A DNA stretch of 64,000 nucleotides. It comes from Zygnema cylindricum (taxonomy: Eukaryota > Streptophyta > Zygnematophyceae > Zygnematales > Zygnemataceae). A program made the translations under genes and the position numbers. Positions 19,803-50,941 of the stretch are shown piece by piece (positions within the stretch are counted from its first letter, which is position 1; each line of letters starts with the position of its first letter). The stretch is from NCBI GenBank assembly GCA_037447655.1, contig JBBHKE010001445.1, positions 107,018 through 171,017 of the forward strand. The letters run 5' to 3'. The notes under the pieces were generated by a model, which was given only the letters and a program-made list of their open reading frames with translations, made no database searches and was not told the origin of the DNA.

Positions 19803-20030
19803 TGGGAGAGAGAGAGAGAGGGAGGGAGGGAGGGAGGGGGGGAGGGGGGGGGGGGGGGGGGGGGAAGGGAGAGGGGGAGGGAGAGGGAGAGGGAGAGGGA
19901 GAGGGAGAGGAAGAGGGAGAGGGAGAGGGAGAGGGAGAGGGATTGAGGGATTGAGGGAGAGGGAGAGGGATTGAGGGATTGAGGGAGCGCGAGAGGGGGC
20001 AAGAGCGACAATGAGAGCGGGAGAGGGAGC
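19803..20030. repeat. G-rich purine tract (GGGA)n with a poly-G run
   Basis: GAGAGGGAGGGAGGG leads into an uninterrupted run of about 16 G, followed by (GGGAGA)n and GGGATTGAGGGATTGAGG. Many closely spaced G-triplets on one strand make G-quadruplex formation plausible. Confidence 0.88.
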
Positions 20031-22660: not shown

Positions 22661-23044
22661 GTCAGGCGTCCCCTCTCTACCCACCACCTTCCCAACCCCT
22701 ACCTCAACACCAGTGGGCTGATGTCCCTGTGGCTGTAATGTTTATAAGAAAAGGACTTCTGGAAATATCTTATTCATTTTATCTGGGGATAGGTAGATGG
22801 AATTATATATTTTCCCAGTTTAATTCCTTGGTTCCTCGGATATCAAAGTCTGAGTTTAATATAAACTTCACAAACTTTTCATGGGTACAGCTAAATATGT
22901 AGCATCATATGGTCTGAGGAGACATGTGGAAATCAGATGTTTGGGAGAGCGTAACTTTGCAAAAAGACATTATAGTCCCACAACTCTCCTCCCTCCAACA
23001 CCCACTCGCTCTAACAAATGCGTGTAGGGTCCAGCACTGTGCAG

Positions 23045-23791
23045 ATGGAAGATGTGCTCAGAGGCATCCGTACACTCTCTCAAAAGCAAGTGGAGGACAC
23101 CCGACGCGGCGGTCGCAAAATAGTGACTTCTTATTTTTCTCAGTGGTCTGTCTTTAGGGGGACGTTCGACGGAGCACCTGTGGTGGTCCTTGTTCTGAAA
23201 CCCGTTGATAGTGTGGATAATACCGCATGGCAAACTTCTCCTCCCCTTAATGTGGAAGCCATGGCTTGGCAGATGAACAGTTTTAGTCATCCCCACGTGG
23301 CAAAGGTCATAGGATGGTGTCGCGAGAGTAGAAGCATTATGGTGGAGGGAAGAGAGGGAGGGAGCTTAAAGGACCGGATAAATGAAGGTTTGGCTTTGGA
23401 GGATTGCTGTCAAATAGCACACCAAGTAGCGGTCGCAGCGATGTATCTTGGAAGACAAGGTCTTGGTGTGCGTCTAGATCCTAAATTAATATTTTTGGAT
23501 GACAAAGACAACTGCAAGCTTCTTTACCTTCCCACCTTTTCCTGGGTTACCTGTTCTCTATTTGGCAAGTTGCTAGGAGAAATGCTGACGGGACCATTGT
23601 TGGAGAAACCTGTCAAGTCACAAGCTGAATTGAAAGGAAAAGACGACCCTCGCGTCAAAAATTGGCCAAATAATGCGATTAAGGAACTCACTCGACTCAA
23701 GACTGCGGATTTTAGAGTTGACATCACATCCCTGGAGGAGGTGGCAAAAGATATGGACCGCATCAGTAAAATGGCAATGGGTGCCGAGCAG
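23045..23791 (+). CDS. Kinase gene 1, exon 2: B-type pseudokinase domain
   Basis: Acceptor GTGCAG|ATGGAAG, donor GAGCAG|GTGAGA, 747 nt, phase 0. It reads MEDVLRGIRTLSQKQVEDTR, WSVFRGTFDGAPVVVLVL (no Lys at the VAIK site), FSHPHVAKVIGWCRESRSIM, GLALEDCCQIAHQVAVAAMY, VRLDPKLIFLDDKDNCKLLY (no HRD, no DFG) and SLFGKLLGEMLTGPLL (helix F region). It closes with KDDPRVKNWPNNAIKELTRL, a C-lobe-like helix. It carries a 15-residue insertion (VDSVDNTAWQTSPPL) that the later B domain lacks. Because the exon opens with ATG, an internal start could make a shorter protein. Confidence 0.75.
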
Positions 23792-23985
23792 GTGAGACAT
23801 CCTCTATCTGGCCCTCCCCTTCCTCTCACCTGGGTTTTACCTGTGGGAACCTGTGTTGTTGTCTACAAGAGAATATTCCCAAAGAAAAAGGGAAAAAGGA
23901 ATCAAATCAGGGAAAATAGAAGTGAGTCCACATTCTAATGATGTCAATGTGGCATGCTTCTTTTGCTTTTTTCCTCTTGTGTCAG

Positions 23986-24657
23986 CTCGGTGCCCTGCGA
24001 ACTCTCTCTGTCAAACAAGTGGAAGACTCCCTCAAACAGAGGCTGTGTGAGCAGCCTTGGGAAGTCCACACTGGGCTCTTTGAGCATAAATTTGTCGTGG
24101 TTCATGTTTTGGGACATGACGACAAAGTGGCCGATATCGCATGCCAGATGCACAGTGTCAGTGGCAGTAACCGCCATGTGGCGAAGTTCATAGGCTGGTG
24201 TCGCGACAATAGAAGCATTATGGTGGAGGGAGGACAGAGAGGGAGCTTAAAGGACCGAATAAAGGGTAACGATTTGCCATGGCAGGAGTACTGTAGGATA
24301 GCACAGGAGGTGGCATCTGCAGCTGTGCATTTGGCCAGCCAAAGTGGTGGTGTGAGAATTGATCCTGACCTTGTATGGCTTGACAGTAACGATAACATCA
24401 AGGTTGTTTACATCCCCAGTGGATCGGACAGTGCAACTCGCAGTTTTGGCCGTATTTTGAAAGACATGGTGGAGAAACCACTGCAACGTTTCAATGCCGT
24501 CTCTACAGCTCATCTGGACGAGTATTGGAAGGCAGGAGGTGACGCGATGAGAGGAATCGATCACATTGCTGACATGTGTGGAAACGATGAAGATCCCCCA
24601 TCTATGGAGGCAATTGCAGGGGAAATTACCCGCATTTCCGCAATAGCCAATGAGAAG
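23986..24657 (+). CDS. Kinase gene 1, exon 3: second A-type pseudokinase domain
   Basis: Acceptor GTGTCAG|CTCGGTG, donor GAGAAG|GTCAGG, 672 nt, phase 0. It begins LGALRTLSVKQVEDSLKQRL and follows the exon 1 pattern: VVVHVLGHDDKVADIA, RHVAKFIGWCRDNRSIMVEG, GVRIDPDLVWLDSNDNIKVV and RSFGRILKDMVEKPL. It ends MCGNDEDPPSMEAIAGEITR. His replaces the VAIK Lys, and HRD and DFG are absent. It differs from exon 1 by an extra residue pair in SVSGSNRHVAK. The genomic frame stays open through the upstream intron to 23938, but the acceptor is strong and conserved in gene 2. Confidence 0.75.
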
Positions 24658-25137
24658 GTCAGGCGTCCCTCCTCTCTAGCCACTCTACCTCCACTGTCCA
24701 CCACCTCGTTCAAGATGGTTAAAATCGTTTTGTTTCCCGGTATTCTTCTCTTTTTGTTATCTTTTTGGGGTTTTCACTTTGAATTGGGTTCTTTTGCCTG
24801 CCTTTTGAGATTTGATGTTTCTTTTTTTGTCAATGGTTTATTGTGGATGACCTGTTTTCAAGATGATGTGTTCGCATTGCCAAAAACTTTTGCAAATTGA
24901 AGCTCTGATTTTGTTCGGTTATAAATAAAAAAAGATTGATATCAAGACTGCGTTCAACTCAAAATTTAACACATTTTCTGGAAAGCTACATTTGTAGCAT
25001 CATGTCTTCTGATAAAGAGAGGATGAAATTAGAGGTTTGATAGAGCGTAACTTTGCAGAAGGCATGATATTACCAATACCTTCCTCCCTCCAGCCCTCTG
25101 GCGCTGACAGATGCGTGTCGGGTCCACCATTGTGCAG

Positions 25138-25845
25138 ATGGAAGATATGATCAGAGACATCCGTACTCTCTCTCGGAAGCAAGTGGAAGAGGCCCGACAT
25201 GGCAATCGCAAAGAAAATCTATCCAATTGGCACCGTTGGTCTGTCTACAGAGGGACATTCGAGGGATCACCGGTGATGGTCCATGTTTTGGAACCTCACC
25301 AGAAAAAGGCCAATATAGCATGGGAGTTGCAGAGTATAAGCCATCCCCACGTGGCAAAGGTCATAGGCTGGTGTCGCGAGAGTAGAAGCATTGTAGTGGA
25401 GGGAGGAAAGGGAGGGAGTTTAAAGGACCGGATAACACAAGGTTTGAATTTGCAGGATTGCTTTCGTGTAGCAAACCAAGTAGCAATTGCAACTCTGTTT
25501 TTTGAAAGACGAGGTATTGGTGTGTGTATAGATTCTGAAATGATAGTTTTTGACGATAACGACAACAGCAAACTTATTCAACTTCCGTTTCATTTAAAAG
25601 CTGATTCTGCATGTCTTCAATTCGGCGAGATGCTAAGAGAAATTCTGATGGGACCATTGTTGGAAAGTGTCACGTCACATGCTGATCTGAAGTCGAAGCT
25701 CGACCCTCGTGTCAGAAACTGGCCGAAGGATGCGATTGAAGATCTCACTCGACTCACTGCTCTTTGTTTGAAAGAGGACGTCACGATGGAGAAAGTGGTA
25801 GAAGATGTGGACCGCATCAGTAAAACGGCAGTGACGGTCGAGCAG
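25138..25845 (+). CDS. Kinase gene 1, exon 4: second B-type pseudokinase domain
   Basis: Acceptor GTGCAG|ATGGAAG, donor GAGCAG|GTGAGC, 708 nt, phase 0. Sequence marks are MEDMIRDIRTLSRKQVEEAR, WSVYRGTFEGSPVMVHVLEP, SHPHVAKVIGWCRESRSIVV, GLNLQDCFRVANQVAIATLF, IGVCIDSEMIVFDDNDNSKL (in place of HRDLKPxNVLLD...DFG), CLQFGEMLREILMGPLLE and KLDPRVRNWPKDAIEDLTRL. It is more similar to exon 2 than to exons 1 and 3, giving an A-B-A-B order. It lacks the 15-residue insertion of exon 2. Confidence 0.75.
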
Positions 25846-27542
25846 GTGAGCCGTCCTCTCTCTCTCCCTCCACTTCCTCCCGTCTAGTGGGTTTGTGGCT
25901 GTGACACCTGTGCCTGTGGGAACCTCTGTTGCTGTCTACTAGAGAATATTCTTGAAGTTAAAGGGAAGAAAGGAAAGCAAAGCACATAAATGAGAAACGC
26001 GATCCATATTGTAACGGTGTCAACTCTAGACAAGTTGCAAGGAAACTTTTTTTGGGGGGGAGGAGGGGAGGGAAAGTCGAGGTGAGTTTTTGTTGTCTCG
26101 GCTCCAAGCAAGCAGGAGGCTCCTCCTACCCATACCTCCACCAAAAGTTGGCAAAATTTTAATTATAACAGAAAAGCCATAACAAAAGCAAGTAAAAACC
26201 CTCTTCCGTATAATAACACATCGGGGATAAAATCGCCATTCTTTCTTTTTCCCTCTCTTCTCATCTGTACAGCAAGGCTGGCCAACCTCCCAGGCCTTGT
26301 TTGAACATCCACTGCTAGACATCCCCCCCTTCTCTCCCCACTTCCTTCCCAGTCAACTTCCCAAAAGAATTCCCAAAACCTCCCTGAACGCTCCTGTCAG
26401 CCCCTTTTTCGTCGATGGGGTTAAAATGGATCTGGAAAATAACTTCGTTTATATTCACAGACAGTATTTCAAATAATGTTGGGTATCGAGGACCACTTGC
26501 CGATATTCTATATGTACCGAATTTTAGGTACCAGATAAAGCGATATATCGAGAAGCTACATATCGCGATATTTCTGCGATATATACATTTTTATTTTTTT
26601 TCCAATTTTATTTTTCCCAAAGCGCACCCCCCCCCGCCCCCCCGCGTGGCACGCGCTCAGTCGGGGGGGGGGTGTGTTCGTTCGATTTTTCCTACTGGAT
26701 CTGTACGGACACCCAGCTTTTACCAAATATATCGCGATAATTTATGTTGGTCCCGGTACGATATATCGAGGCCTCCTGACTGATCGATAATCGATATATC
26801 AAATATTGAGATTATCGCGATATGATTTTACCCGATACCCAACATTAATTTCAAATTCAAAATGTTTTCGAGGACATAGACCTTTACAATTATTCAGCGC
26901 TAAGTTTTGTTTGGCGAATATGGTAGTATCATGGTATTGCACCGTTTATATGAGTGATCGCCGATTATGAAAATAATGAGTGATAATGGAGTTATCGGTA
27001 TTCAGGTCGATAAATATCGCGGCAAGCAACCGACCGATATTTGATAATATCTATATTGGGAACTGTCAAAATGACAGCTGATGCGATATAAATCCCTAAG
27101 CATATTGCATCCTCTCCTACATTGTCTTCACAAGACTTACTGGATTTAAAGGATAAGGCTTTCTTCTATATGTTTACTCATTGTATCTACCTTTCTTAGT
27201 GTCATTGTTGTCTTTCCATCTGCGTTGAAGTGCAAGGAAAGTTTTAGTTTGTGCAAGGATTATTTTTGTAGATGGGATTGAATTGAATCTGGAGAGCAAC
27301 TTAGTCTGTACTCAATAACATCTATAATTCTAAATTTTCGGGTACCTAATGGTTGATGAAGGTATGTCAAGTTTCCCCATTCGTTGGAACTGTCTTATTT
27401 TCACTGTTTATGTGCCATCATTGCTTGGTTTGCATTTTTTTTTCTTGTCATGCCCATAGTCATCTTTGGATATAATGTCATCCACATTAGTTCTGATCAC
27501 GGATCACAATAAAAAACTAAACCTTAAATCTTGCTGCCGCAG
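25846..27542 (+). other. Kinase gene 1, intron 4 (1.7 kb)
   Basis: About twice the length of intron 4 of gene 2 (37281-38159). Both ends align with gene 2. The extra sequence, about 26041-26860, includes a G-run near 26048, AT-rich spacer and the hAT-like MITE at 26474-26847. Confidence 0.65.
26474..26847. mobile_element. hAT-like MITE in intron 4 of kinase gene 1
   Basis: The termini TAATGTTGGGTATCG and inverted CGATACCCAACATTA are perfect over 15 bp. An 8-bp target duplication ATTTCAAA lies at 26466-26473 and 26848-26855. The 374-bp interior holds CGATATATCG-type palindromes and a C-run/G-run pair (26630-26645 and 26664-26674). An 8-bp duplication is characteristic of hAT superfamily insertions. 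Confidence 0.85.
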
Positions 27543-28625
27543 GCTGACGGCTCCTTCTCTGGAGACATGTGGCTCATTACCGCAGAAGAAATTGCAGTTG
27601 CAACTAACAACTTTTCTCCGTCCAACGTGATTGGAAAGGGTGGCTTCGGTGAAGTTTTTAAGGGCCATCTCATGGGAATGGACATAGCTGTGAAAAGGGT
27701 CCTTCCTGGAAAAGCAGATAGCAAGTTTGAACAGGAAATTCGACTTCTCAGTAGGTTCAAGCACCCGAATATCATGTTTTTGATTGGTTATGAACCCAGT
27801 GGACCCTGTTTAGTGTCTGACTACATGTCGGGAGGTAGCCTCCAAGACTGCCTTGGAGCACAGGGAGATGCCTTAACTTGGAAGGACAAAGTGCGAATCT
27901 GTCGAGAAATGGCGTCTGCTGTGGCGTATATGCATAGTCAAGGAGTGGTGCATCGAGACTTGAAACCGCCGAATGTGCTTCTTGATTACGGCAAAAGAAG
28001 CAAAATATGTGATATGGGTTTGGCCAAACTCTGTAAGGGGAGCCAGGTACAGATGTCTGCAATGCAGGGAACATTCGGCTATATGGATCCATACACTGTA
28101 CACTCTTTACTTGTGGGTCCCCATTCGGACACCTATGCACTTGGACTCATTATTGTGCAACTTCTTACAGGGATGGAGCGTATTCAAGATGTTCACAAAA
28201 TGTTAGGGAAACTTGAAAAAAAGTCACAAATTGATCACTTTGCTGGTCAAGTAAGCCGATGGGGGAAGGATCCTGATGTTTTCAGGGAGATTGTTGGACA
28301 ATTCTGTTTGAATTTGGATCCAAGGAGCTCTACGATGCCCAAACCGGCTTTACTGAAGACTATGGGGCTTCTGCTTCGATGTTTGGAACGCACCTGGGAA
28401 TGTCGGCTCGACCTCAGTGCCCTTCTGTCTTCCCTAGAAAAGTTAGAAAGTTTGGCCAGCAAAGGAGATCTTGAAAAGTCAGGCACACCAGTTCACAGGA
28501 ACCCTAACCCTCGTCAACCTGTGGAACCTGTTTATTTTGCTCGCTTGCCACCAGAAGGAAAAAAAGATGATGAAAGGAGGGACCCTTTGTTAGACAAATC
28601 TGCCAAATTAACGGCAGAGTTAGAG
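27543..28625 (+). CDS. Kinase gene 1, exon 5: canonical Ser/Thr kinase domain
   Basis: Acceptor GCCGCAG|GCTGACG, donor TTAGAG|GTGAGA, 1,083 nt, 361 codons, phase 0. It has a complete kinase: ITAEEIAVATNNFSPSNVIG (RLK/RLCK-style lead-in), GKGGFGEVFKG loop, DIAVKRV with the VAIK Lys, HPNIMFLIGYEPSGPCLVSD hinge, HRDLKPPNVLLD catalytic loop and ICDMGLAKL (DMG for DFG). The activation segment is GTFGYMDPY, then HSDTYALGLIIVQLLTG. DMG recalls the DVG of plant U-box kinases and should still bind Mg. After the kinase comes a variable tail (LDLSALLSSLEKLESLASKG). No coiled-coil exon is found downstream; reading on gives 30 residues and a stop at 28718. Confidence 0.82.
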
Positions 28626-30734: not shown

Positions 30735-31560
30735 AGAGCGAGAGAGGGGGGGAGGGAGGGAGGGAGGGAGAGAGGGAGGGAGGTGGAGGGTGTTGAGTTT
30801 AGTTCTTTGTTAGAAGCTTATTTTCAGTTTTCTAGGTTTTTGTTAACAACGTAAACTAGCATTCCAGTTTACATTATCTGGTTAGCGGTTCTTAGAAGCC
30901 TACACTCTAGCATCTGACGACAGATTCGATCCTACGTTTTCCACCCTTCTTAAGGAATTTAAGGATCTCTTTTTTTGCCCTTTCGGCCAATGAGTCAAGT
31001 GACCTTTTAGAGTCAAATAAGCTCCTTAGATTCCGAGAAATCACCTTCGTGACATTCTCCCTTTTATTTAAGTTTCCGGCTTCACATGTATTTTTCACTA
31101 CCAAGAAAAAATAATTGCTTTTTCCGCCTTTTTTGTCTTCATCTACATTTTCTTCCTTCTTCCTTTTGTCCGTTGCCAAGTCATCTATTGCAATAGAGAG
31201 GGAGGTAGAGGGATAAGGAGGGAGGGAGGAGAGGGAGAGGGGGTGAAAGGAAGAGGTGGAGAGGAGAGAGGGAGGGAGGGATGAAGGGGGGGGGAGATGG
31301 AGGGAGGGAGGGAGGGAGGGAGGGAGGGCTCTCCCTCTCCCTCTCCCTCTCCCTCTCCCTCTTACCACTTCCTCTCCTTTCCCTCTTCCTCTTCTCCTTC
31401 GCCGCTTTCTTCCTCTCCCCCTTCTCCTCTCCCTCTCTCCTCCCTCTCCCCTTCCCTCTCTCTCTCTTTGTCCTCTCTCAATTCCCTCTCACTCTCCTTC
31501 GGTCCTCTCCCTTCTCCCATAGTAGGATAGAGTAGAAACAAGACAGGTATAACATAAGAA
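30735..31560. repeat. Purine and pyrimidine simple-sequence blocks
   Basis: (GGGA)n at 30744-30790. An abrupt strand switch follows inside 31195-31560: (GGGAGG)n to 31328, then (CCCTCT)n from 31329 onward, which could pair back as a hairpin. The stretch 30800-31190 between the blocks is ordinary AT-rich DNA with a minus frame of no known domain. Confidence 0.85.
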
Positions 31561-33455: not shown

Positions 33456-34166
33456 ATGGCGAATGGCAAGACAGTAGAAAGTGGCTATCAGTATGACGCG
33501 CCGAGCGCCCTGAGAACTTTCTCGGTGGAACAAGTGAAAGCCGCTCTAGAGTACAGGCTGTGTGAGCAGCCTTGGAAAGTCTACAAGGGGAATTTCGACG
33601 GTAAACCGGTATTGGTACATGTTTTGGGAAGTGACGACAATGTGGCCGATATCGCATCGCAGATGCACAGTGTCAGCCATCCCCACGTGGCGAAGGTCAT
33701 TGGCTGGTGTCGCGAGAGTAAAAGCATTGTGGTGGAGGGGAGATGGAGAGGGAGCTTAAAGGAACGAATAGAGGGTAATGATCTGCCATGGCAGGACTGC
33801 TGTCGGATAGCACAAGAGGTGGCATCTGCAGTTGTGTGTTTGGCCAGGCAAAGTGGTGGTCTGAGAATAGATCCTGAGCTTGTATGGCTTGATGAAAACT
33901 ACAGTGTCAAGCTTGTTTACATCCCCGGTGGATTCGACAGTACAACTCGCAGTTTTGGCCGTGTTCTGAAAGAAATGGTGGAGAAACCACTGCAATGTTT
34001 CAATGCCATCTCTACAGCTCATCTGGACGACTATCATAATACGGGAGGTGATCTGATGAGAGAACTCGATCAGATTGCTGACATGTGTGGAAACGAAGAA
34101 GATCCCCCATCTATGGAGGAAATTGCAGTGAAAACCACCAAAATTGCGGAAATAGCCACTGAGAAG
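33456..34166 (+). CDS. Kinase gene 2, exon 1: A-type pseudokinase (residues 1-237)
   Basis: ATG in GGGCATGGCG, donor GAGAAG|GTCAGG, phase 0. Kinase-like landmarks by residue: VLVHVL at 52-57 with His at 55 in the VAIK Lys place, HPHVAKVIGWC at 75-85, a hinge-like IVVEGRWRGS at 91-100, RIAQEVASAVVCLA at 117-130, GLRIDPELVWLD at 135-146 in place of the HRD loop, VKLVYIPG at 151-158 in place of DFG, and RSFGRVLKEM at 165-174 as helix F. The acidic end MCGNEEDPPSMEEIA is shared by all A domains. This is the first domain of the most complete gene in the window (six exons, 1,430 residues). Confidence 0.82.
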
Positions 34167-34697
34167 GTCAGGCTTTCCCCTCTCTGACCACCACCTCCCA
34201 CACCCCCACCACCTCAACACCAATGGTCTGATGTCCTTGTGGCTGTAATGTTTATAAGAAAAGGACTTCTGGAAATCTCTTTTTCATTTTGTCTGGGGAT
34301 TATAGGCAGATGGAATTATTTTGTTTCCCCGTTTAATTTTTCCTTGGTTTATTTGACTTTTATTTTTTCTCATCGTTTGTGTTTCCGGTTTTGTGGATTT
34401 TTTTATGGTCTGGTGTGTAAGAATTTTGTACAAGATGACGCTCTTGCTGTTCAAAAGTATTTTGGAAATGAGAGTTCTGATTTTACTCTGGTTTTGAGAC
34501 GGATATCAAACTCTGAGTTTAATATAAACTTCATAGACTTTTCCTGGTTAAAGCTAAATATGTAGCATCATATGACATAATGAAATCAGTTGTTTGGGAG
34601 AGCGTAACTTTGCAAAAATACATGATAGTCCCAATACCCACCTCCCTCCAACCTCCACTGCCTCTAACAAATGCGTGTAGGGTCCAGCACTGTGCAG

Positions 34698-35444
34698 ATG
34701 GAAGATGTGCTCAGAGGCATCTGTACACTCTCTCAAAAGCAAGTGGAGGACACCCGACGTAGCGGTCGCGAAATAACGACTTCTTATTTTTCTCAGTGGT
34801 CTGTCTTTAGGGGGACGTTCGACGGAGCACCTGTGGTGGTCCTTGTTCTGAAACCCGTTGATAGTGTGGATGATACCGCGTGGCAAACTTCTCCTCCCCT
34901 CAATGTGGAAGCCATGGCTTGGCAGATGAACAGTTTTAGTCATCCCCACGTGGCAAAGGTCATAGGATGGTGTCGCGAGAGTAGAAGCATTATGGTGGAA
35001 GGTGGAAAGGGAGGGAGCTTAAAGGACCGGATGAATGAAGGTTTGGCTTTGGAGGATTGCTGTCAAATAGCACATCAAGTAGCGGTCGCAGCGATGTATC
35101 TTGGAAGACGAGGTATTGGTGTGCGTATAGATTCTAAATTAATATTTCTGCATGATAAAGACAACTGCAAGATTCTTTACCTTCCCACCTTTTCCTGGGT
35201 TACCTGTTCTCTATTTGGCAAGATGATAGGAGAAATGCTGATGGGGCCGTTGTTGGAGAAACCTGTCAAGTCACAAGCTGAACTGAAAGGGAAACACGAC
35301 CCTCATGTCAAAAATTGGCCGAGTGATGCGATTCGAGAACTCACTCGACTCAAGACTGCGATTTCAAGAGTTGACATCACTTCCATGGAGAATGTGGCAA
35401 AAGTTATGGACCGCATCAGTAAAATGGTAGTGGGTTCCGAGCAG
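34698..35444 (+). CDS. Kinase gene 2, exon 2: B-type pseudokinase (residues 238-486)
   Basis: Acceptor CTGTGCAG|ATGG, donor GAGCAG|GTGAGG, 747 nt, phase 0. It has the B pattern MEDVLRGICTLSQKQVEDTR and GTFDGAPVVVLVL with no Lys, then SHPHVAKVIGWCRESRSIMV, IGVRIDSKLIFLHDKDNCKI, SLFGKMIGEMLMGPLL and KHDPHVKNWPSDAIRELTRL. Catalytic residues are missing as in the other B domains. The genomic frame happens to stay open through intron 2 into exon 3, so retention of that intron would still give protein, with 79 extra residues. Confidence 0.82.
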
Positions 35445-35681
35445 GTGAGGCTTCTTTTCTTTGCCCTTCCTCTTCCTCTTGTCTTATGGGTTTATGGCTG
35501 TGGTACCTGTGTGGAAAAAACCTGTGGGAACTTGTGTTGTCGTATACAAGAGAATATATATACAAGTGAACATATTCTCAAAGTAAAAGGGAAAAAGGAA
35601 ATTAAAACAGGGAAAAATAAAAGTGCTGTCCTAATGATGTCAACACAGCGTGCTTCTTGTGCTTTTTTCCTCTTGTGCCAG

Positions 35682-36353
35682 CTCGGCGTCCTGCGAACTC
35701 TCTCTGTTAAACAAGTGGAAGACGCCCTCAATCAGAGGCTATGTGAGCAACCTTGGGAAGTCCACAGAGGGCTCTTTGAGCATAAATTTGTGGTGGTTCA
35801 TGCTTTGGGACATGACGACAAAGTGGCCGATACCGCATGCCAGATGCACAGTGTCAGCGGCAGCCACCGCCACGTGGCGAAGTTTGTAGGTTGGTGTCGT
35901 GACAGTAGAAGCATTGTGGTGGAGGGAGGAGAGAGAGGGAGCTTAAAGGACCGAATAAAGGGTAACGATTTGCCATGGCAGGAGTACTGTAGGATAGCAC
36001 AGGAGGTGGCATCTGCAGCTGTGCATTTGGCCAGCCAAAGTGGTGGTGTGAGAATAGATCCTGAACTTGTATGGCTTGACAATAACGATAACATCAAGGT
36101 TGTTTTCATCCCCGGTGGATCCGACAGTGCAACTCGCAGTTTTGGTCGTGTTCTGAAAGACATGGTGGAGAAACCACTGCAACGTTTCAATGTCGGCTCA
36201 ACAGCTCATCTGGACGAGTATTGGAGGGCAGGAGGTGACGTGATGAGAGAACTCGATCAAATTGCTGACATGTGTGGAAACGATGAAGATCCCCCATCTA
36301 TGGAGACCATTGCAGCGAAAATCACCCGCATTTCCGCAATCGCCAATGAGAAG
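35682..36353 (+). CDS. Kinase gene 2, exon 3: second A-type pseudokinase (residues 487-710)
   Basis: Acceptor GTGCCAG|CTCGGC, donor GAGAAG|GTCAGG, 672 nt, phase 0. It starts LGVLRTLSVKQVEDALNQRL. It contains VVVHALGHDDKVADTA, RHVAKFVGWCRDSRSIVVEG, YCRIAQEVASAAVHLASQ, GVRIDPELVWLDNNDNIKVV and RSFGRVLKDMVEKPLQ. It ends MCGNDEDPPSMETIAAKITR. No Lys, HRD Asp or DFG Asp. Nearly all differences from gene 1 exon 3 are conservative, which argues that the protein is or recently was under selection. Confidence 0.82.
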
Positions 36354-36572
36354 GTCAGGCGTCCCTCCTGTCTACCCACTCACCCTCCACCGTCCACCAC
36401 CTCTATCCTCACTTGTCAGCTACATTTATAGCATCATATCTTCTGATAAGATAGGATGAAATGAGATGTTTGAGAGAGCATAACTTTGCAAAAGACATGA
36501 AATTACAAATAACCTCCTCCCTCCACCCCTCTCTGGCACTGACAGATGCATGTGGGGTCCACCATTGTGCAG

Positions 36573-37280
36573 ATGGAAGATATGATCAGAGACATCCGTT
36601 CTCTCTCGCGGAAGCAAGTGGAAGACGCCCGACATGGCAATTGCAAGAAAAATCTATCCAATTGGCACCGTTGGTCTGTCTATAGAGGGACATTCGAGGG
36701 ATCACCGGTGGTGGTCCATGTTTTGGAACCTCACCAGAAAAAGGCCAATATAGCATGGGAGTTGCAGAGTATCAGCCATCCCCACGTGGCAAAGGTCATA
36801 GGCTGGTGTCGCGAGAGTAGAAGCATTGTGGTGGAGGGTGGAAAGGGAGGGAGCTTAAAGGACCGGATAACACAAGGTTTGGATTTGCAAGATTTCTTCC
36901 GGGTAGCAAACCAAGTAGCTCTTGCGACTCTGTTTTTTGAAAGACGAGGTATGGGTGTGTGTATAGATTCTGAAATGATAATTTTTGATGACAACAACAC
37001 AAGCAAACTTGTTCACCTTCCGTTTCATTTAAAAGCTGATTCTGCATGTCTTCAATTCGGCAAGATGCTAAGAGAAATGCTGATGGGACCATTGTTGGAG
37101 AGTGTCACGTCACAAGCTGATCTGAAGTCGAAGCTCGACCCTCGTGTGAGAAACTGGCCGACGGATGTGATTGAAGAACTCACTCGACTTACTGCTGTTT
37201 GTTTGAAAGAGGACGTCAGGATGGAGAAAGTGGTAGAAGATATGGACCGCATCAGTAAAACAGCAGTGGCGGTCAAGCAG
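36573..37280 (+). CDS. Kinase gene 2, exon 4: second B-type pseudokinase (residues 711-946)
   Basis: Acceptor GTGCAG|ATGG, donor AAGCAG|GTGAGC, 708 nt, phase 0. MEDMIRDIRSLSRKQVEDAR, WSVYRGTFEGSPVVVHVLEP, SHPHVAKVIGWCRESRSIVV, MGVCIDSEMIIFDDNNTSKL, CLQFGKMLREMLMGPLLE and KLDPRVRNWPTDVIEELTRL. This is the last pseudokinase before the active kinase exon. Adjacent pseudokinases often regulate a kinase in cis (JAK JH2 is the established example), and that is a possible role here. Confidence 0.82.
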
Positions 37281-38159
37281 GTGAGCCGTCCTCTCTCTCT
37301 CTCCATCCCCTTCCTCTCCTCTAGTGGGTTTGTAGCTGTGGCACCTGTGTGAAAATGACCTGTGGGAACCTCTGTTGCTGTCTACTAGAGAATTTTCTTG
37401 AAGTAAAAGGGAAGAAAGGAAAGCAAAACACATAAATGAGAAACGCGATCCATATTCTAACGGTGTCGACTCTAGAGAAGTTGGATTAAAAGTATTTCGA
37501 GGACATAGACATTTACAATTTTTTAGAACTAAGTTTATTTTGGCATCTACGGTACTGTAGTATCATGGTGTTACACCGCTTATCAGGAAAGTCGCCGATT
37601 AACGAAGTAATCGGTGATAATCAAATTATCCGCATTTAGCGGTCGGGCCTGGGTTAAGCAACCAATGGACATTCAATAGTATCAATATCACCTATTATTG
37701 GAATGTCAGCTGATACGATATATATCCCTAGTCATATTGCACCCTTTCCTAAAATCAGGACATGATGAATATAAAGGATAGGGGCTTCTTTCTACGTATA
37801 TTTTCTCCTTTATTTTCACTTTAAGTGTCGATTTTTGTCTTTCCTGCGTAGAAGTACAAGGAAAATGTTTCGTTGTCCGAGGATTATTGGTATTGAATTG
37901 AATCTGGAGAGCAACTTAGTCTGTACTCACTTAATAGCATCTATAATTCTAAATTTTCGGGTACCTACTGGTTGATGAAGGTATATCAAGTTTTCCCATT
38001 CGTTGGAACTATCTATTTTTCACTGCTTATGGGCCTTTACTTCTTGGTTTGCATTTTTCTTTTGTCATGCATATAATCTTTGGATATAATGTCATCATCC
38101 ACATTCGTTCAGATTACAAATGAGAGTCAAAATCTAAACCCTAAATCTCGCTGCTGCAG

Positions 38160-39242
38160 GCTGACGGCTCCTTCTCTGGAGACATGTGGCTCATCAAGGC
38201 AGAAGAAATTGCAGTTGCAACTGACAACTTCTCTTCTTCCAACATCATTGGAAAGGGCGGCTTCGGTGAAGTTTTTAAGGGCCATCTCATGGGAATGGAC
38301 ATAGCTGTGAAAAGGGTCCTTCCTGGAAAAGCAGATAGCAAGTTTGAACAGGAAATTCAACTTCTCAATAGGTTCAAGCACCCGCATATCCTGTTTTTGA
38401 TTGGTTATGAACCCAGTGGACCCTGTCTAGTTTCTGACTACATGTCGGGAGGTAGCCTCCAAGACTGCCTTGGAGCAAAGGGAGATGCCTTAACTTGGAA
38501 GGACAAAGTGCGAATCTGTCGAGAAATGGCGTCTGCTGTGGCATATATGCACAGTCAAGGAGTGGTGCATCGAGACTTGAAACCGGCGAATGTGCTTCTC
38601 GATTACGGCAAAAGAAGCAAAATATGTGATATGGGTTTGGCTAAACTCTGTACGGGGAGCCAGGTACAGATGTCTGCAATGCAGGGAACATTCGGCTATA
38701 TGGATCCCTATACCTTAAGCACTGGACTTGTGGGTCCCCATTCGGACACCTATGCACTTGGACTCATTATTGTGCAACTGCTTACAGGGATGGAGCGTAT
38801 TCAAGATGTTCACAACATGTTAGGGAAACTTGAAAAAAAGTCACAAATTGATCGCTTTGCTGGTCCAGTAAGCCGATGGGGGAAGGATGCTGATGCTTTT
38901 AACGAGTCTGTTGGACAATTCTGTTTGAATTTGGATCCAAGGAGCTCTGAGATGCCTAAAAATGCTTTACAGAAGTCTATGGGGTTTCTGCTTCGATGTT
39001 TGGAACGCACCTGGGAATGTCGGCTCGACCTCAGTGCCCTTCTGTCTTCCCTAGAAAACTTAGAAAGTTTGGCCAGCAGAGGAGATCTCGAAAAGTCAGA
39101 CATGTCAGCTCACAGAAACCCTAACCTTCTTCAAACTATGGAGGCTGTTCATGATGCCCAGTTGGCACCAGAAGGAATAAAAACAGATGAAAGAAGGGAA
39201 TCGTTGTTAGATAATTCTGCCAAAGTGACAGCAGAGTTAGAG
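38160..39242 (+). CDS. Kinase gene 2, exon 5: canonical kinase domain (residues 947-1307)
   Basis: Acceptor GCTGCAG|GCTGAC, donor TTAGAG|GTGAGA, 361 codons, phase 0. Active-site landmarks: GKGGFGEVFKG glycine loop, AVKRV with Lys at about residue 997, a candidate helix C Glu in KFEQEIQLL, HRDLKPANVLLD with HRD at about 1083-1085, and CDMGLAKL with DMG at about 1103-1105. The activation segment is MQGTFGYMDPY with no APE, and helix F is SDTYALGLIIVQLLTG. The HRD Arg places it among RD kinases, which usually need activation-loop phosphorylation. The lead-in AEEIAVATDNFSSSNIIG is of the plant RLK/RLCK/Pelle clade. No transmembrane segment occurs, so it should be cytoplasmic. Confidence 0.88.
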
Positions 39243-39496
39243 GTGAGATAGTTTGTTTGAATCAGCGACTGACTAACGAAACTACATTATTTTAAGAATA
39301 TGAAGGTTGTTGTTACATCTCAGGGAATGAACACCCTAATAATCTGGCTTTGACTTGCAGCCTGGATTTGTAGAAGATGCATCTTCCTTAGTGCAGTCTG
39401 TTTGTCGATGTTTTGCGAGATGCGTTGGCTGGTTTAGATTTCACTACCTGAAAATTACAGCTATTCTAACTTTTCAATTTACTTTTGGTTTTGCAG

Positions 39497-39868
39497 GTAT
39501 TGGTTGCTAGACGAGAAAAGCTTCGACAGGACCTGGTTACTTTGCGAGAGCGTGCAGAAACATCGAAAAAAACCGCCTCAGAATTGCAACAAATCTTATC
39601 GACTGCAGTGCCCGCTGGAAAATTTGAAGTGCTCACACGCCTCGGAGATGGTGTGAAGCATTTGGCGCGGGCTATTGCTGCAGAGGAAGAACAAAAGCTA
39701 AACCTACTGTTAGAACTGGAGGCGGTCGAAAAGGACATTACTGAAAAGGAGACCATGTTTTCTCGTTTGGATGACGCAAATGCAAAAGAGAGAGAGAGTT
39801 GGATATGGCGCGCTATGGGTGGTTTTCGAACGGAGATCGAAAAGAGACTGGGAACAGTGGCGCAGTGA
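39497..39868 (+). CDS. Kinase gene 2, exon 6: C-terminal coiled coil (residues 1308-1430)
   Basis: Acceptor TTTTGCAG|GTATTGG continues exon 5 in phase 0, ending at TGA 39866-39868. It is rich in Leu, Glu, Lys and Arg in heptad-like order (VARREKLRQDLVTLRERAET, then LLLELEAVEKDITEKETM), with no Pro inside the main helices. A coiled coil suggests oligomerisation, which would bring kinase domains together. A homologous exon occurs in the inverted pseudogene (45762-46253) but not in gene 1. The end of exon 5 (SAKVTAELE) already has helical character and merges into this segment. Confidence 0.8.
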   Translation, partial: VLVARREKLRQDLVTLRERAETSKKTASELQQILSTAVPAGKFEVLTRLGDGVKHLARAIAAEEEQKLNLLLELEAVEKDITEKETMFSRLDDANAKERESWIWRAMGGFRTEIEKRLGTVAQ

Positions 39869-42326: not shown

Positions 42327-43684
42327 TAGTGTTGTGTATCGGTAAGCATTTACAGACAACCGATATGGACCTTTTTTCGGGTTCCCGATAATCGATATAT
42401 CGTTATCGGTCTTATCGCCAATAAGTAGCCGATAATATCAGGTACTTATCGGCGATAACACCGATAACGATAACTATCGGCGATAAATGTACGGGCCGTA
42501 CAGATAAATGTACTAGCCGTACATATGAATGTACGGCATGTACACTCAGCTGTACGGCTTAATCCTCCGGACGCGCAGAAAGTACAGTCGCCGCCATGAG
42601 TCTGTACGGTTTTGGTACGGTTCCAATAAATTACAGAAACAATTAGCAATAACAGAAATTGTTATCTAAATTACACAAACTGTTAGCGATAACATGAATT
42701 GTAATCTAAATTACACAAACAGTTAAAGATAACAGGAATTGTTACCTAAATTACACAAACACTTAGCAATAACAAGAATTGTTACCTAAATTACACAAAC
42801 AGTTAGCGATAACACGAATTGTTACCAAAATTACACAAACTGTTAGCGATAACAAGAATTGTAACCAAAATTACACAAACAATTTGCTCTAACATGAATT
42901 GTTACCTAAATTATACAAAATATTAGCGATAACAAGAATTGTTACCTAAATTACATAAACAATTAGCGATAACAGGAATTGTTACCTAAATTACACAAAC
43001 TGTTAGCGATAACAAGAATTGTTACCTAAATTACACACACAGTTAGCGATAACAAGAATTGTTACCTAAATTACACTAACTATTAGCGATAACAGGAATT
43101 GTTACCTTTCACATCCGAGGCCATAGCTTTGTTCCTTTATTCCTTGGTATCCACTGGACACCTGCCACGTGTCAATCTGTCAGCTTTTTTGGCATAACCT
43201 GCCAAAAGAGCCATCCCGGGATGCCAGCGCTCACGCTGGCCGTCCGCTCGTACTTTTTCATTCCAAGTAGTCCGTTAGATTCCGGCGGCGCGCAGAATAT
43301 TATTTTGTGTCCGCTGTACTTTATGTCCGCCGTCCTTTTTCCGTTCCATGTTCACCAATTTGTCTGTAAATTTTGTACGCCGCCGTAAATTTTTTTGTTC
43401 AGTTAACCGACCAACGTTTTCTGTGCTGCGTTTTCCGTAATAATTTCCAGTTAATATTTACGGAACAATATCATACACGTGGCATGACACGCTATATAAT
43501 GTAAATAGCATAATACAGTATTTAATAAGGTACTATAGTATGCGTACTATATATTTTTATAGTTATCGCCGATATGGAATTTGTTGGTCTCGGACCGATA
43601 TATCGGTACCTCTGACCGTTCGATAACCGATAACTATCGGTATCGGTGTTATCGCGATAAGTTTTTTACCTATACACAACACTA
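42327..43684. mobile_element. hAT-like non-autonomous element carrying a minisatellite
   Basis: The termini TAGTGTTGTGTATCGGTAA and the inverse of TAGTGTTGTGTATAGGTAA lie inside an 8-bp target duplication CCAAATAC (42319-42326 and 43685-43692). The subterminal regions hold many CCGATAA/TTATCGG palindromes. The 1,358 bp include about twelve 40-bp tandem repeats and no transposase frame. Its ends resemble those of the MITE at 26474-26847 (TAATGTTGGGTATCG), which suggests one family. Confidence 0.85.
42629..43107. repeat. 40-bp minisatellite, about 12 units
   Basis: The unit starts AATTACACAAACTGTTAGCG and continues ATAACAAGAATTGTTACCTA with single-base variants. It lies wholly inside the hAT-like element and so was probably amplified within, or moved by, it. 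Confidence 0.92.
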
Positions 43685-45761: not shown

Positions 45762-46253
45762 TCAGTCCTTGACATCGTGTCGCCTAAATCTTGGACCTTC
45801 AAATAAAGACTTTTTCTGCAACTCATCTGCTTTTCCATCACCTAGCCGTGCCTCTCTGAACAACAATTGCACATCCACAATAAGTTCCCCATGTATTGCT
45901 GCAACTAGTTCCCGCCTCTTTTCTGCAGCCATTACTCGAAGCCTCTCACAGCGAGCCATGGCCGTATCCCACTCTTCTGTATACACTTCATCCAAACCAG
46001 CACCCATAGTCTCCTTTTCTTTAATTTCCTTTTCCGCTGCCTTCAGTTTTGACTGTAGGTTTAGCTTTTTCTCGATAGCCAGACCTAAATGCTTCAAATC
46101 ATCTCCAAGGCGTGCAAGCATTTCAAAGTTCTCAAAGCCCACTGCAATTGATATGTTCTGTTGCAATCTTGGAATGGTTTTCTTCGACGTTTCTCTAAGC
46201 TCATGCACATTCACAACGTCCTGTTTAAGCTTTTCTCGTTTGGCAACCATTGC
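45762..46253 (-). pseudogene. Kinase pseudogene 4: coiled-coil exon with broken acceptor
   Basis: Homologous to gene 2 exon 6: MVAKREKLKQDVVNVHELRE, SKKTIPRLQQNISIAVGFEN and LGLAIEKKLNLQSKLKAAEK. It is longer at the C-terminus (RREARLGDGK-like, ending RRHDVKD). The acceptor that reads TTTTGCAG in gene 2 is TTTTGCCG here (46254-46255), so normal splicing to it should fail. The frame itself is intact for 163 codons, implying that loss was recent or that another acceptor is used. Confidence 0.7.
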
Positions 46254-46509
46254 CGGCAAAACCAAAAGTAAACTGCTAGTTCAGAAAATAATTTATTTTC
46301 ACGTAGCCAAATCTAGAAAACTGCACATCTTACAAAAGATCAACGAAGGGACTGCCCAAGGAAAATGCATTTTCTAGCAATCTAGCCTGTAAGACTATGT
46401 CAAGTTATTAGGGCTTTCATTACCTGCGATGTGACAACGATCATAACAATATTTTTGGCGTAATGTAATTTCTTTAGTCAGCATGTGATTGCCAAAAACA
46501 ATATCTCAC

Positions 46510-47767
46510 GTCTAATTATGTCCTTAACCTGGCAGGGTCCTCCTACATCATTTTGCTTTTTTCTTCAAGTTCTCCTTCTTCAGCTGTCAAGTGGAAAACA
46601 TGTTCAATTTCGTCTGATGGGCCCAAACGTTCAGTTTCCCCTATGCTGGCCAAACCTTCCAACTCTACTAAGGATGCGAGGAAGACATCGAGGTCGGGCC
46701 GATATTCCCACATGTGTTCCAAACATCGAAGTAGGAGCCCCACAGTCTTTTGTATGGCCTCTTTAAGCATTGCAGAGCTCATTGGATCCGATTTTGAACA
46801 AAAATTTCGAGTAATCGCTCTGAATACATCAAGATCTTTTCCCCATCGGACGCTCTGAAAACATCAGGGTCTTTTTCCCATCGGCTACCGAAAGAAGCGA
46901 CAGGACTCTCTTGACTTTCTGTGCTGCTGATACTTTGTTTGCTGCTGCTACTTTGTTCTGTCACTGTCTCCACGGTTGTGGTATCTTCTTCAACAAGAGG
47001 GTCCAATATCAAGTTAATTTTTTTTTTTTTCGCTTTTCATGTTTATACAACAACCTATGAACACCATGGATACGCTTGGTCCCTGTCAACAGTTGCAGAA
47101 TAATGAGCCCAAGTGCATAGGTGTTTTAATGAGGACCTACAAGTGTTGCAGAATAATGAGCCCAAGTGCATAGGTGTTTTAATGAGGACCTACAAGTCCT
47201 GTTTTTGCGGTGTAGGGATCCATATAGCCATATGTTCCACATACGCCATATATATTCACGCGGTTCCCCTTACACAGTTTAGCCAAACCCGTATCACATA
47301 TTTTGCTTTTTTTTACTGTCATTAAGAAGTACATTCACCGGTTTGAAGTCTCGATGCACCACATTTCGCTTGTGCATGTACGCCACAGCCGACGCAATTT
47401 CTCGATAAATTCGTACTTTGTCCTTCCAATGTAAGACACCTTCCATTTCTCCGAGGTAGACTTGGAGGCTGCCTCCTAACATGTAGTCAGTCGCCAGACA
47501 CGGTCCACTAGGTTCATAACCAATTAGAAGTAGGATATGAGGTTGCCTGAACGTATTCAAAAGTTGAATTTCTTGTTCAAACTTGTCATCTACTTTTCTT
47601 CCAGGAAGGATTTTTTTCACACCTATATCCACTCCCATGTGACGCCCCTTAAAAACTTCGCCAAAGCCTCCAATTCCAATCTTGTTGGAAACCGAGAAGT
47701 TGTCTGTTGCAACTGCAATTTCTTCTGCAGTGATGTGCCACATGTCTTCAGAGAAGGAGCTGTCAAC
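46510..47767 (-). pseudogene. Kinase pseudogene 4: kinase exon with frameshifts
   Basis: It starts after CTGTGCAG at 47767: VDSSFSEDMWHITAEEIAVA, GIGGFGEVFKGRHMGVDIGV, LLIGYEPSGPCLATDYM and VVHRDFKPVNVLLND. One extra A after the catalytic loop shifts the frame at about 47300. Beyond it DMG is DTG, a TAA interrupts GPH-NTYALG, and a 53-bp tandem duplication shifts the frame again. The tail (46782-46543) still reads LKEAIQKTVGLLLRCLEHMW and EYRPDL. The linker TVETVTEQSSSS matches gene 3 rather than genes 1 and 2. Confidence 0.85.
47092..47197. repeat. 53-bp tandem duplication inside the kinase pseudogene
   Basis: The unit starting GTTGCAGAATAATGAGCCCA occurs at 47092 and 47145 and is virtually identical. 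53 is not a multiple of three, so it is disabling. Confidence 0.88.
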
Positions 47768-48569
47768 CTGCACAGCGGATTTTTAGGGTTTAGCTTATTG
47801 CTTTCATACGTCACTGAATGCATGCGGATGATGGCATTGCATTTAAAGTTGACATTGCTCGTGCCAAGGAAAAAATGCAAACCAAGATATGATGGCATGA
47901 AAAAAGTGAAAAGTGGATAATTCCAAAGAAGGTATAAAGTTGACATATTTTCAACAACCAGTAGGCACCCTGAAATTTAATCATACATGTGATTGTGTGA
48001 GCATATGTTGTTCACCAGACTTAAGCCAACGGTACAATTAAGAAAAGTGCAAAGTAAATGATAAATAGACAGGAAAAACCCTATCCTTTAAATCCAATGA
48101 AGTCCCAAGTTGAAAATACGGGATAGGATGAGATATGATGCAACAAGACAAACCGAAGTGCAATAGACAAAACGTGATGCTGAGATGCCATGCAACATGA
48201 CAAAATTTTGCAAGGCAGACAAAAACTAGACAAGAAAAATGCAACAAAACTAGACAAAACACAAAAAAAAACGTTGATGTAGCAAGAAAAACAAATGCAC
48301 CACGACATAGAAACGATGAGACATGACACAATATGAAAATAATAAGGTGAATTTCATTCTCTCACAATCCTCTGGGGCCATACGATTGCAAAAGGTTCTA
48401 AAGCAGTAAAACGGAAGCACCATCTAATCAGTTTTAAAACCTTAGATCTAAAATTTTAAATTGAAGATAAATCTTCAGAGCGTAAATTCTTATCTAAAAA
48501 GTTGAATTTGAATGCCACACTTCGACCAACCTGGTGAAACATTCAAAATTCTTGACTGCATCAATAAGG
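47768..48569 (-). other. Intron-like sequence shared with gene 3
   Basis: The minus strand of 47950-48450 is similar to 62280-62680 plus, in intron 2 of gene 3 (for example GATTGTGAGAGAATGAAAT and the CATGGCAT words). This marks gene 4 as an inverted relative of gene 3. Confidence 0.6.
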
Positions 48570-49885
48570 TCATCTGTTTCCTAGAACTGAAATACACGAG
48601 AGAGAGTTGTTTCTCCGTTTTTCAAAAGTATGGAACACATTGTTGCATCTAAATGCTCTGCTGTTAGGGACAAGATGCTTGCTTTCTGGATGAATACCAA
48701 CCTTAACGCGGCTCAAAATAGCTTCTCCGTTCATTTGTCGTGCGCTTTCAAAAATAATTTTGCCCGGATGCAATCTCTGCAAAATCGCTCCCTCACACAT
48801 GACGGCACCAGGAACGGCAGGCCTCACAACCATTTTAACTTTGCTACTGAATGTCTCGTCCAGTTTTTTAATGAGATAGGGGTTTGCTGAGAACCCTCCC
48901 ACTGCAAAAATGAATTTGCATTTCCCAGCTTCTGACAGCTGTGCCTTCACAAGGTCGATCACTTGATTTACTACAGGGTCAAAAATTCCCTTCATGTCCT
49001 TATTTGTAAGCTCAATCGAATCAAAACGACGTTCATTGGCACCTGTTTTCTCCCAAGCAGCGGCAAGCTTGATTGGAACATCAAATAATTTCGAGAGACC
49101 GTCACCGCTGAAAATATAAAAATGAGTTATATTTCGTCAACAAAAACAGTCATCGATGAGAAGAAACGTGCGGTTGAATATTCATAGGGGAACATGGGTA
49201 CGATAACAAAGAAATATATGTGTGTGCAAATTTCAATTGTGTTTTTAGATAGAATTTGACTACAGTACTGTACTGTACAAACAGACACAGTTATCTCAAA
49301 CCGAAGAAACAAGACTCTCAAAATTGAAATGGACATGTAGCCCAATTCTGTCATATTTCAGAGTTTTGACTGGATCGATGTGATCTCACCTGAATATCAT
49401 CTTAATTTCATCCCATTTCTTAGGCAGCTTTACTACCATGCCCGTATCCTGCAGCAAAAAGCTACGTAAACAGCTTATCCTCTGGTTTAAAAAAGTGAAA
49501 AAACGGAGTAAGGAAGGAAGACCCGCACAGTCCTCCAGTGCTCCTTGTTACCTCTCTCACCTCCGCTCCATCTCCCACCTTCTCATAAACCACAATGTCC
49601 ACTGTGCCTCCTCCCGCGTGAAGAATCAGAATTCTGTCTTTTTTCTGCAGCGGGACCGCCTGCTTGTGGTGGCAATATGTGGAGGCCGCCTCTGGCTTCA
49701 GAATGATGCTGAGAGGCGGAGAACCTTTGACAGTCATCCCAGCTTCTCGAGCGAGATTGCGCATTTTATGTTTCGGCTTTTCTTCCTAGATAGCGGGCAC
49801 AGTGAGCGCCCACTCTATTTCCTTCATTCGTACGTGTGTGCCATATCTGAGAGAGTTTACGGATGCGTCTAAAAATATCTTCCAT
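48570..49885 (-). pseudogene. HSP70 (HSPA12-like) ATPase fragment fused to a B-type exon start
   Basis: The minus strand opens at 49885 with CAG|ATGGAAGAT, MEDIFRRIRKLSQ, the start of a B-type pseudokinase exon. It then changes to HSPA12-like sequence: EWALTVPAI, a TAG where Trp is expected, KMRNLAREAGM, LKPEAAS, then ILHAGGGTVDIVVYEKVGDG (phosphate loop) and STGGLCGSS. Two spliced pieces follow: 49390-49448 (VVKLPKKWDEIKMIF) and 49107-48570 (GDGLSKLFDVPIKLAAAWEK, FDPVVNQVIDLVKAQL, FIFAVGGFSANPYLIKKLD, VVRPAVPGAVMCEGAI, GIHPESKHLV). Residues and order fit the HSPA12 branch of HSP70. The stop and frame changes point to a pseudogene. Confidence 0.75.
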
Positions 49886-50447
49886 CTGCATACTGGTGGG
49901 CCCCACACGTGTCAGTCAACAACAAGGCTAGGCAGGTAGAACGGTTGGGGTTCAAGGGGTATTCAGAATTATCATGTCTTGCTGCAAAATTTTCTATGCC
50001 TCAAACATATAGAGTCATTGTATTATATAAAATATGATTCTAAACGTTGAGCTTTACCTAGGATTCATTTTGAATTTTAGTTTTAACTTAAACTCTGACA
50101 CCAATCTCATTTTTGAATCTCATTTTTGTTTCAAAAGTGAGCTAAATCATATCTTTCATTTGCAAACATATTTTTGATACAACAAGTGCATCATTTTGTG
50201 CACAATTAAAAAAAAAAAAAAAAAGCCAAAAGAAAAAAGACACTTAACAAAACCCTAGTAAAAAACGTAGGAAAAGAAAACAAAAAGGCTAGGAATAAAA
50301 ACACTCTATCTACATATCAATAATTCCCAATACAGAATAAAAAAAATCCCATAAGCCCTCTCGATGCAAACAGCACAGCCACAAAAACATTAGGCCACTG
50401 CGTATTGGGGCGGAGGAGGGGGGAGAGGGTGTGGAGAGACGCCTGAC
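49886..50447 (-). other. Intron of kinase pseudogene 4
   Basis: AT-rich, 562 nt, between the A-type exon donor and the MEDI exon acceptor. Comparable in position and size to gene 3 intron 1 (481 nt). Confidence 0.6.
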
Positions 50448-50882: not shown

Positions 50883-50941
50883 GAGAGGTACACTCGATTA
50901 GTCTTCTTAAAGCGGACCATTTTCCTCCCTTCATGAGAGGT
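50845..50941. repeat. 52-bp duplication at the kinase/copia breakpoint
   Basis: ATTAGTCTTCTTAAAGCGGA and the following bases occur at 50845 and 50897. The second copy runs into copia sequence. Such junction duplications are typical of end-joining repair. Confidence 0.85.

Follow-up and report, generated by a model that had tools for sequence, protein, structure and literature searches.

An array of degenerate kinase domains precedes a single kinase domain in a tandem-kinase-like gene family of Zygnema cylindricum

A stretch of 64,000 nucleotides of the Zygnema cylindricum genome (hereafter the window; C1080:107018-171017 of an assembly of 352,776,454 bases in 2,689 contigs) carries a six-exon gene whose predicted product lines up four pseudokinase domains of two types (A-B-A-B), one protein kinase domain (K) and a C-terminal module (C). 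This gene, referred to as copy II or the focal gene, is real and not the product of chance, since a neighbouring copy (copy I) has the same five exons, from A1 to K, with the same splice sites. Both are part of a large, apparently uncharacterised family. As a working interpretation, which we consider a serious candidate somewhat short of probable, the family would be tandem-kinase-like, with a constrained but faster-evolving pseudokinase array sensing a ligand, probably pathogen-related, and gating one kinase.

All six exons of the focal gene are in phase 0, with GT at every donor and AG at every acceptor (Table 1). The open frame starts 18 bases 5' of the ATG at position 33456 and the predicted chain counts 1,439 amino acids; a second possible acceptor of B2 (GTGCAG/ATGGAAG) gives 1,430, the length obtained from six phase-0 exons in a first-pass annotation of this DNA. 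According to sequence searches, the two A modules are 72% identical to each other, the two B modules 52%, and A and B modules 38-41%. Copies in the window were located by tblastn with the focal modules. Copy I has the same module splice sites as copy II and its modules are 87-93% identical, and no C module was detected for it by sequence search. In the focal copy, B1, intron 2 and A2 form a single open frame of 587 codons (window 34668-36428, + strand), so that retention of the intron would still yield a B-A protein. A true exon spanning all three was ruled out, as the corresponding intron of copy I (194 bases) breaks the frame. The last exon, annotated at first as a coiled coil, holds the C module. 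The coiled-coil call itself is weak: on a home-made heptad score, 9 of 500 shuffled sequences scored as high. For the C exon of copy IV, a degraded relative in the same window, 266 of 500 did so.

Judged by sequence and models, A and B are pseudokinases, combining a predicted kinase fold with the loss of essential catalytic residues. Against the Pfam family PK_Tyr_Ser-Thr (cut-off 23.1 bits), A1, B1 and B2 scored 24.2, 27.4 and 23.3 bits, respectively, and A2 fell just under with 21.6. AlphaFold2 models of A1 (pLDDT 83.2, pTM 0.82) and B2 (pLDDT 82.2, pTM 0.81) both matched kinases in a fold search, in agreement with the kinase outlines first read from the sequence; the predicted focal chain thus holds five kinase-fold domains (Pfam; models for A1 and B2). 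The VAIK Lys, HRD Asp and DFG Asp, reported as missing from the four upstream domains, are each kept in none of 51 aligned A and B domains (29 A and 22 B). At the former catalytic positions the same Glu, Trp, His and Tyr are found in 26-28 of the 29 A, and an Asp stands two alignment columns beyond the HRD Asp in 22/29 A and 13/22 B. The stretch from DFG to helix F measures 7-11 residues in A and B, against 38 in four full K domains. In the phylogenetic tree, A forms one clade (98/100, bootstrap/SH-aLRT), B forms one clade (96/93), and A and B together form one clade (100/100). By alignment and tree, A and B are therefore read as one derived clade in which most of the activation segment has been deleted. 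An origin of this clade from K or from U-box kinases was neither supported nor rejected, with values of 0.187 and 0.189 in the approximately unbiased (AU) test. Database matches of A and B, in BLASTP as well as fold searches, were plant RLK/RLCK and IRAK kinases.

K reached 145 bits with Pfam Pkinase. It had been described as a kinase with all catalytic residues, which stands for the Lys, the HRD Asp, the Asn and the DMG Asp: IAVK or LAVK, HRDLKPxNVLL and the DMG Asp are kept in 6/6 K copies. The description is slightly too strong, because the APE Glu has become Tyr (MDPYT) in all six and the glycine loop, kept in four, is altered in copies III and C2131b. In a tree that also included 19 A/B domains and 13 plant kinases of other types, K clusters with eight U-box-type kinases (95/92) in a position beside RLKs, its nearest neighbour being one Closterium U-box-type kinase (96/85); by BLASTP it is 34-43% identical to kinases of this type. 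No U-box or USP domain was matched in the six modelled focal exons at E values up to 10, and no other Pfam family scored above its cut-off in these exons, Kdo reaching its cut-off (21.3) inside K. The C module is conserved, bears no Pfam name and was found in 44 rows of the genome search.

To place the focal gene among its relatives, the assembly was searched with A1 (150 matches, from the best 150 of 198 candidates scored), B2 (117 rows, best 150 of 201), K (139 rows, best 113 of 524) and C (44 rows, 51 of 51). From these rows the census pooled 60 for A and 73 for B, together with 32 K places and 41 C places. It excludes A and B rows that were weak or overlapped others; K rows that cover parts of one and the same K, are fragmentary or belong to more remote kinases, as well as C1869:58935 at 61%; and C row C2216 together with the second pieces of two other C rows. 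Each pseudokinase was labelled A or B by whichever score was higher. Modules were grouped if they lay on the same strand with gaps of at most 5.5 kb, a rule set for this analysis that places gene borders by inference. The outcome, taken from the best-scored candidates, was a set of matches on 33 contigs with about 49 for A, 59 for B, 32 for K and 41 for C. Some A and B matches are fragments, perhaps two halves of one module (e.g. in C1808, C271 and C1480), and the bias is two-way, with fragments inflating the counts and the scoring of only the best candidates deflating them.

These matches make up 73 module groups. The order A-B-A-B-K is seen in six of them, five with C, corresponding to copies I and II, C815, C1098, C2131a and C2131b. 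The focal gene as a unique oddity is thereby ruled out: the arrangement, flagged initially as possibly undescribed, does have an unusual number of degenerate domains, but five other genes share its layout, and all six belong to a larger family. The remaining K-bearing groups comprise B-A-A-B-A-K-C (one), A-B-K (five), B-B-K (one), B-K (five), A-K (three), K-C (nine) and K alone (two), giving a range of 0-5 pseudokinases per kinase. At least one A or B lies upstream of K, on the same strand and within the grouping distance, at 21 of the 32 K places. Seven groups have A/B modules followed by C with no K nearby (three in C2102 and one each in C271, C2175, C2426 and C1808); they are possible pseudokinase-only genes, partners or decoys. 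Two or three A/B modules without K or C occur in 14 groups, ten being A-B, and a single A, B or C in 20. The longest array, B-A-A-B-A-K-C, is found in a large cluster at C1480:281000-400000 that also contains an A-A-B run; the last pseudokinase of this array scores nearly equally as A and as B.

The exon organisation is shared widely. Counting matches that reach the module end, GT directly follows it in 32 of the 33 A exons, in 21 of the 22 B exons and in all five K exons. Among the positions tested, AG directly precedes the module start in 7/7 K, 3/4 C, 16/25 B and 2/12 A; many A are first exons or continue the frame of a B, and for some B a different acceptor lies close by. B and the next A share one intronless frame at C815 and twice in C2131 (493, 520 and 492 codons), and these loci run on to B, K and C. 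Given mostly one phase-0 exon per module and a conserved GT donor, arrays could grow or shrink by unequal recombination.

A, B and K are under purifying selection on average, since omega (the ratio of nonsynonymous to synonymous substitution rates) is below 1, and A and B evolve faster than K over longer comparisons. Between copies I and II, whose overall synonymous divergence (dS) of 0.12 marks the clustered tandem copies as young, omega was 0.38 for A1, 0.57 for B1 (interval to 1.15), 0.36 for A2, 0.36 for B2 and 0.60 for K. In comparisons with copy III it rose to 0.74-0.91 for A/B and amounted to 0.43-0.51 for K. A codon model applied to the same five or six genes gave 0.576 for the first A, 0.492 for the first B, 0.487 for the second A, 0.544 for the last B and 0.335 for K, the latter from the first 226 aligned codons. 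Over 28 A (one row with a stop was dropped) omega was 0.745, over 22 B 0.724, and for K, on three copies, 0.475. Site counts identified 35 constrained sites in A and 35 in B. Of the fastest 35 sites in A, 11 fall in residues 97-114, from the hinge to helix D (P 6e-6 for a stretch picked after seeing the data), against none of the fastest 35 B sites in the matching stretch. This pattern would fit a fixed core and a variable face in A. The doubling of the A-B unit (dS 0.29-0.31 for A1-A2 and 0.39-0.45 for B1-B2) dates from roughly the same time as the divergence of copy III (dS 0.32-0.42).

Protein searches covered the best-sharing candidates whose length was 0.55-1.75 times that of the query, a range that other layouts could escape. 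With the full chain no full-length relative was found: there were 474 matches among 7,991 scored proteins, and the 120 listed cover at most 24% of the query, through the kinase domain. B1 alone had no match at E values up to 0.01 among 205 candidate proteins. The K-C query gave 2,076 matches, headed by P0121 and, at the next ranks, other plant kinases (P0122-P0128); with K alone in BLASTP, U-box-type kinases came next after P0121 among the matches retained. P0121, an ORF from another data set, joins the end of B to the C-lobe of K in one frame without the K N-lobe, and may represent a deletion or an aberrant splice. A literature search for tandem kinases together with Marchantia returned no match.

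The likeness of this tandem of pseudokinases and a kinase to plant tandem kinase proteins (TKPs), suggested from the start, holds, as does the remark that the number of degenerate domains is unusual. By sequence the predicted focal protein has at least two kinase-fold domains, one with conserved catalytic residues and the partners degenerate. Barley RPG1 and wheat WTK1/Yr15, Sr62 and WTK3 (also named Pm24/Rwt4) similarly are intracellular proteins with at least two kinase-fold domains, a pseudokinase beside a kinase and no recognised receptor domain. In the available text of the original survey, TKPs are defined from 92 proteins, one of them in the single moss examined, a decoy role is proposed and no additional conserved domains are reported (PMC6170490, 2018). 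Proteins with two or three kinase domains are analysed in the accessible part of a later study, in which RPG1 is classed as pseudokinase-kinase (PMC8956640), and kinase fusion proteins are presented as a class specific to cereals, some needing a helper NLR, in that of a third (PMC12830362); all three connect tandem kinase proteins with cereal disease resistance (PMC6170490, PMC8956640, PMC12830362). Two or three kinase domains is also the number given for TKPs in these portions of the literature (PMC8956640, PMC12830362), whereas in Zygnema one kinase has up to four (focal gene) or five pseudokinases in front of it. Non-flowering plants are reported to have NLRs that carry a kinase at the N terminus (PMC11218826), and arrays of four or five pseudokinases are not described in the available portions of these four papers (PMC6170490, PMC8956640, PMC12830362, PMC11218826); the 2025 tandem-kinase census (Reveguk et al.) lies outside this comparison. 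Unlike the cereal kinase-pseudokinase pairs, the Zygnema pseudokinases form their own clade with the activation segment mostly deleted, and K groups with U-box-type kinases, whereas Sr62 and Rpg1 are reported as DLSV type.

Other systems share single features. U-box/USP kinases of the PUB33/34/52 type, which we take to be the RLCK IX subfamily, are the group with which K clusters at the identity given above, yet K shows no U-box/USP match, is preceded by pseudokinases and followed by the C module, and has lost the APE Glu. Animal Janus kinases place a pseudokinase (JH2) before a kinase (JH1) in one chain and serve as a model for allosteric gating. They carry FERM/SH2 domains and belong to an unrelated kinase family; the Zygnema proteins have several pseudokinases and no FERM/SH2, and any likeness is at most convergent. 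The comparison of TKPs with Janus kinases is drawn in the available text of the original survey (PMC6170490). Two plant pseudokinases of solved structure, maize GRMZM2G135359 (6cpy) and DRIK1 (6eas), are about 20% identical to A/B; ordinary active kinases reach similar scores, and A/B differ in lacking most of the activation segment.

In the mechanism we propose, a single cytoplasmic-type K (U-box/RLCK type, predicted active) would be preceded by a dead A/B array that binds K or partner proteins and keeps K inactive. A ligand on the variable pseudokinase faces, likeliest a kinase-targeting pathogen protein or a host partner modified by one, would free K, which would then phosphorylate downstream signalling proteins, and the C module may aid assembly. 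Such logic would resemble that proposed for plant TKPs and for JH2-JH1 of the Janus kinases, with a longer, extendable sensor array. An immune role is favoured because of the clustering, the copy number, the variable array length and the function of cereal TKPs. A bolder version is unlikely in our estimation: a new class of plant intracellular receptor outside cereals, forming a genome-wide sensor repertoire. In it, one to five structurally conserved pseudokinases, variable on their hinge-helix D faces, would take the role that leucine-rich repeats have in NLRs, would be coupled to a single U-box-type kinase and a common C module, and would be shuffled as one domain, one exon.

Several observations weigh against the sensing role. 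For this organism, the immune function is one that we infer. An array is not needed by every K, as 11 of the 32 K places (nine K-C and two K alone) have no A or B upstream, and the APE Glu is lost in every K compared. Omega between copies I and II is no lower for K (0.60) than for A/B (0.36-0.57). An excess of amino-acid change at P ~0.1 was seen at six of the 217 sites in A and six of the 239 in B, below the number expected by chance. Moreover, the high omega of A/B (0.724-0.745 over all copies and 0.74-0.91 against copy III) also fits relaxed constraint, and three of the six A-B-A-B-K genes have stops (C815 late in K and in C, C1098 late in K, C2131a in C), although one that falls close to the C-module end may simply be the natural terminator. 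The last two points, together with the broken copy IV and several other matches with stops, among them the K/C end of copy III, would suit a mostly decaying family, in which copies of one ancestral A-B-K gene spread under little constraint, including on A/B, and long arrays have no particular function. We regard this as decidedly unlikely: copies I and II keep five module frames and their splice sites, the matched modules of these copies and of C2131b are free of stops, omega between copies I and II is 0.36-0.60, though the B1 interval reaches above 1, the Glu, Trp, His and Tyr of A are almost invariably shared, and the GT donors of A and B are retained nearly throughout.

Rather unlikely, though with a better claim, is an array of allosteric or scaffold domains that tunes one kinase in development or abiotic stress, the family having grown by ordinary tandem duplication; copy number, clustering, variable module number and fast pseudokinase faces would be unusual for dose-sensitive developmental regulators. 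That the gene model is an artefact, with exons of two or more genes or transcripts joined (e.g. an A-B-A-B gene and a K-C gene), strikes us as highly improbable. The B2-K intron is indeed the longest of the focal gene (879 bases, against 1,697 in copy I), some K-C groups have no A/B upstream, and the focal K exon has a Met at nine residues from its beginning that could be a start. Set against this are the B-A fused ORFs in three genes, the phase-0 AG acceptor found in front of every K tested, the same module order in six genes, and P0121, in which the end of B and the C-lobe of K are in frame, albeit without the N-lobe. If a tandem-kinase-like sensor is retained as the preferred reading, a family of this size, with longer arrays, monophyletic modules and kinase-less A/B groups, would suggest an independent origin and radiation of the tandem pseudokinase-kinase design. 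Its natural series of 0-5 pseudokinases on related kinases would let the pseudokinase role be tested directly.

Table 1. Exons of the focal gene and related copies in the window (positions in the window; aa, amino acids; a slash marks a splice junction).
Feature	Position	Strand	Basis or remarks
Focal gene, exon 1: start codon and pseudokinase A1, 237 aa	33456-34166	+	ORF, Pfam, alignment, model
Focal gene, exon 2: pseudokinase B1, 249 aa	34698-35444	+	Acceptor GTGCAG/ATG, donor GAGCAG/GTGAGG
Focal gene, exon 3: pseudokinase A2, 224 aa	35682-36353	+	Alignment, comparison with copy I
Focal gene, exon 4: pseudokinase B2, 245 aa	36546-37280	+	Alignment, model; alternative acceptor at 36573, 9 aa shorter
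Focal gene, exon 5: protein kinase K, 361 aa	38160-39242	+	GKGGFGEV, IAVK, HRDLKPAN, DMG; APE Glu replaced by Tyr
Focal gene, exon 6: C module, charged tail, weak coiled-coil signal, stop codon	39497-39868	+	Sequence search, heptad score
Copy I, A-B-A-B-K	21950-28625	+	A1 21950-22660, B1 23045-23791, A2 23986-24657, B2 25111-25845, K 27543-28625
Copy III, A-B-K	59213-64000	+	A 59213-59914, B 60396-61097, K 63032 to past the window end
Copy IV, degraded	45948-50885	-	A part 50885-50448, B N-terminal remnant ~49906-49817, K 47767-46627 with stops, C 46250-45948

Copy III continues beyond the window, with a C match at contig position 171463-171753; stops late in K and in C indicate that it may be broken at this end. 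Further to the right on the same contig lie a broken C module (C1080:175025-175315, +) and another K-C copy (C1080:177583-179143, +). In copy IV, two ORFs between A and K (window 49785-48573, - strand) occupy the place expected for most of B; judged by eye, they resemble parts of an HSPA12-like ATPase of the Hsp70 family. Their match to DnaK is weak (E 0.075), Pfam gave no hit to Hsp70 and no match was found in the 33 short loci searched; an Hsp70/HSPA12 identity is at best a weak lead, and the ORFs are possibly an inserted gene or an alternative fusion. Copy IV also contains two short tandem duplications of two copies each, one of 53 bases in K (100% identity, 47092-47197) and one of 52 bases in A (96%, 50837-50942), a possible route by which its modules broke.

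Repetitive sequence is found around the cluster as well. ORFs that appear by eye to be copia-like retrotransposon sequences lie at window positions 9313-17812 (-) and 51217-52207 (+), and ORFs with an RQGDPLGA motif, by eye similar to non-LTR (long terminal repeat) reverse transcriptases, at 55172-57118 (+), a region that includes a 77-base tandem duplication (55299-55454). Long GA/GGAG and CT/CTCTCC low-complexity tracts occur at 8004-8326, 13457-13901, 19792-19997, 31195-31518 and 61871-62129, some of them 5' of copies I and II and one within copy III. Finally, a 40-base tandem repeat is present in 12 units at 42627-43107.

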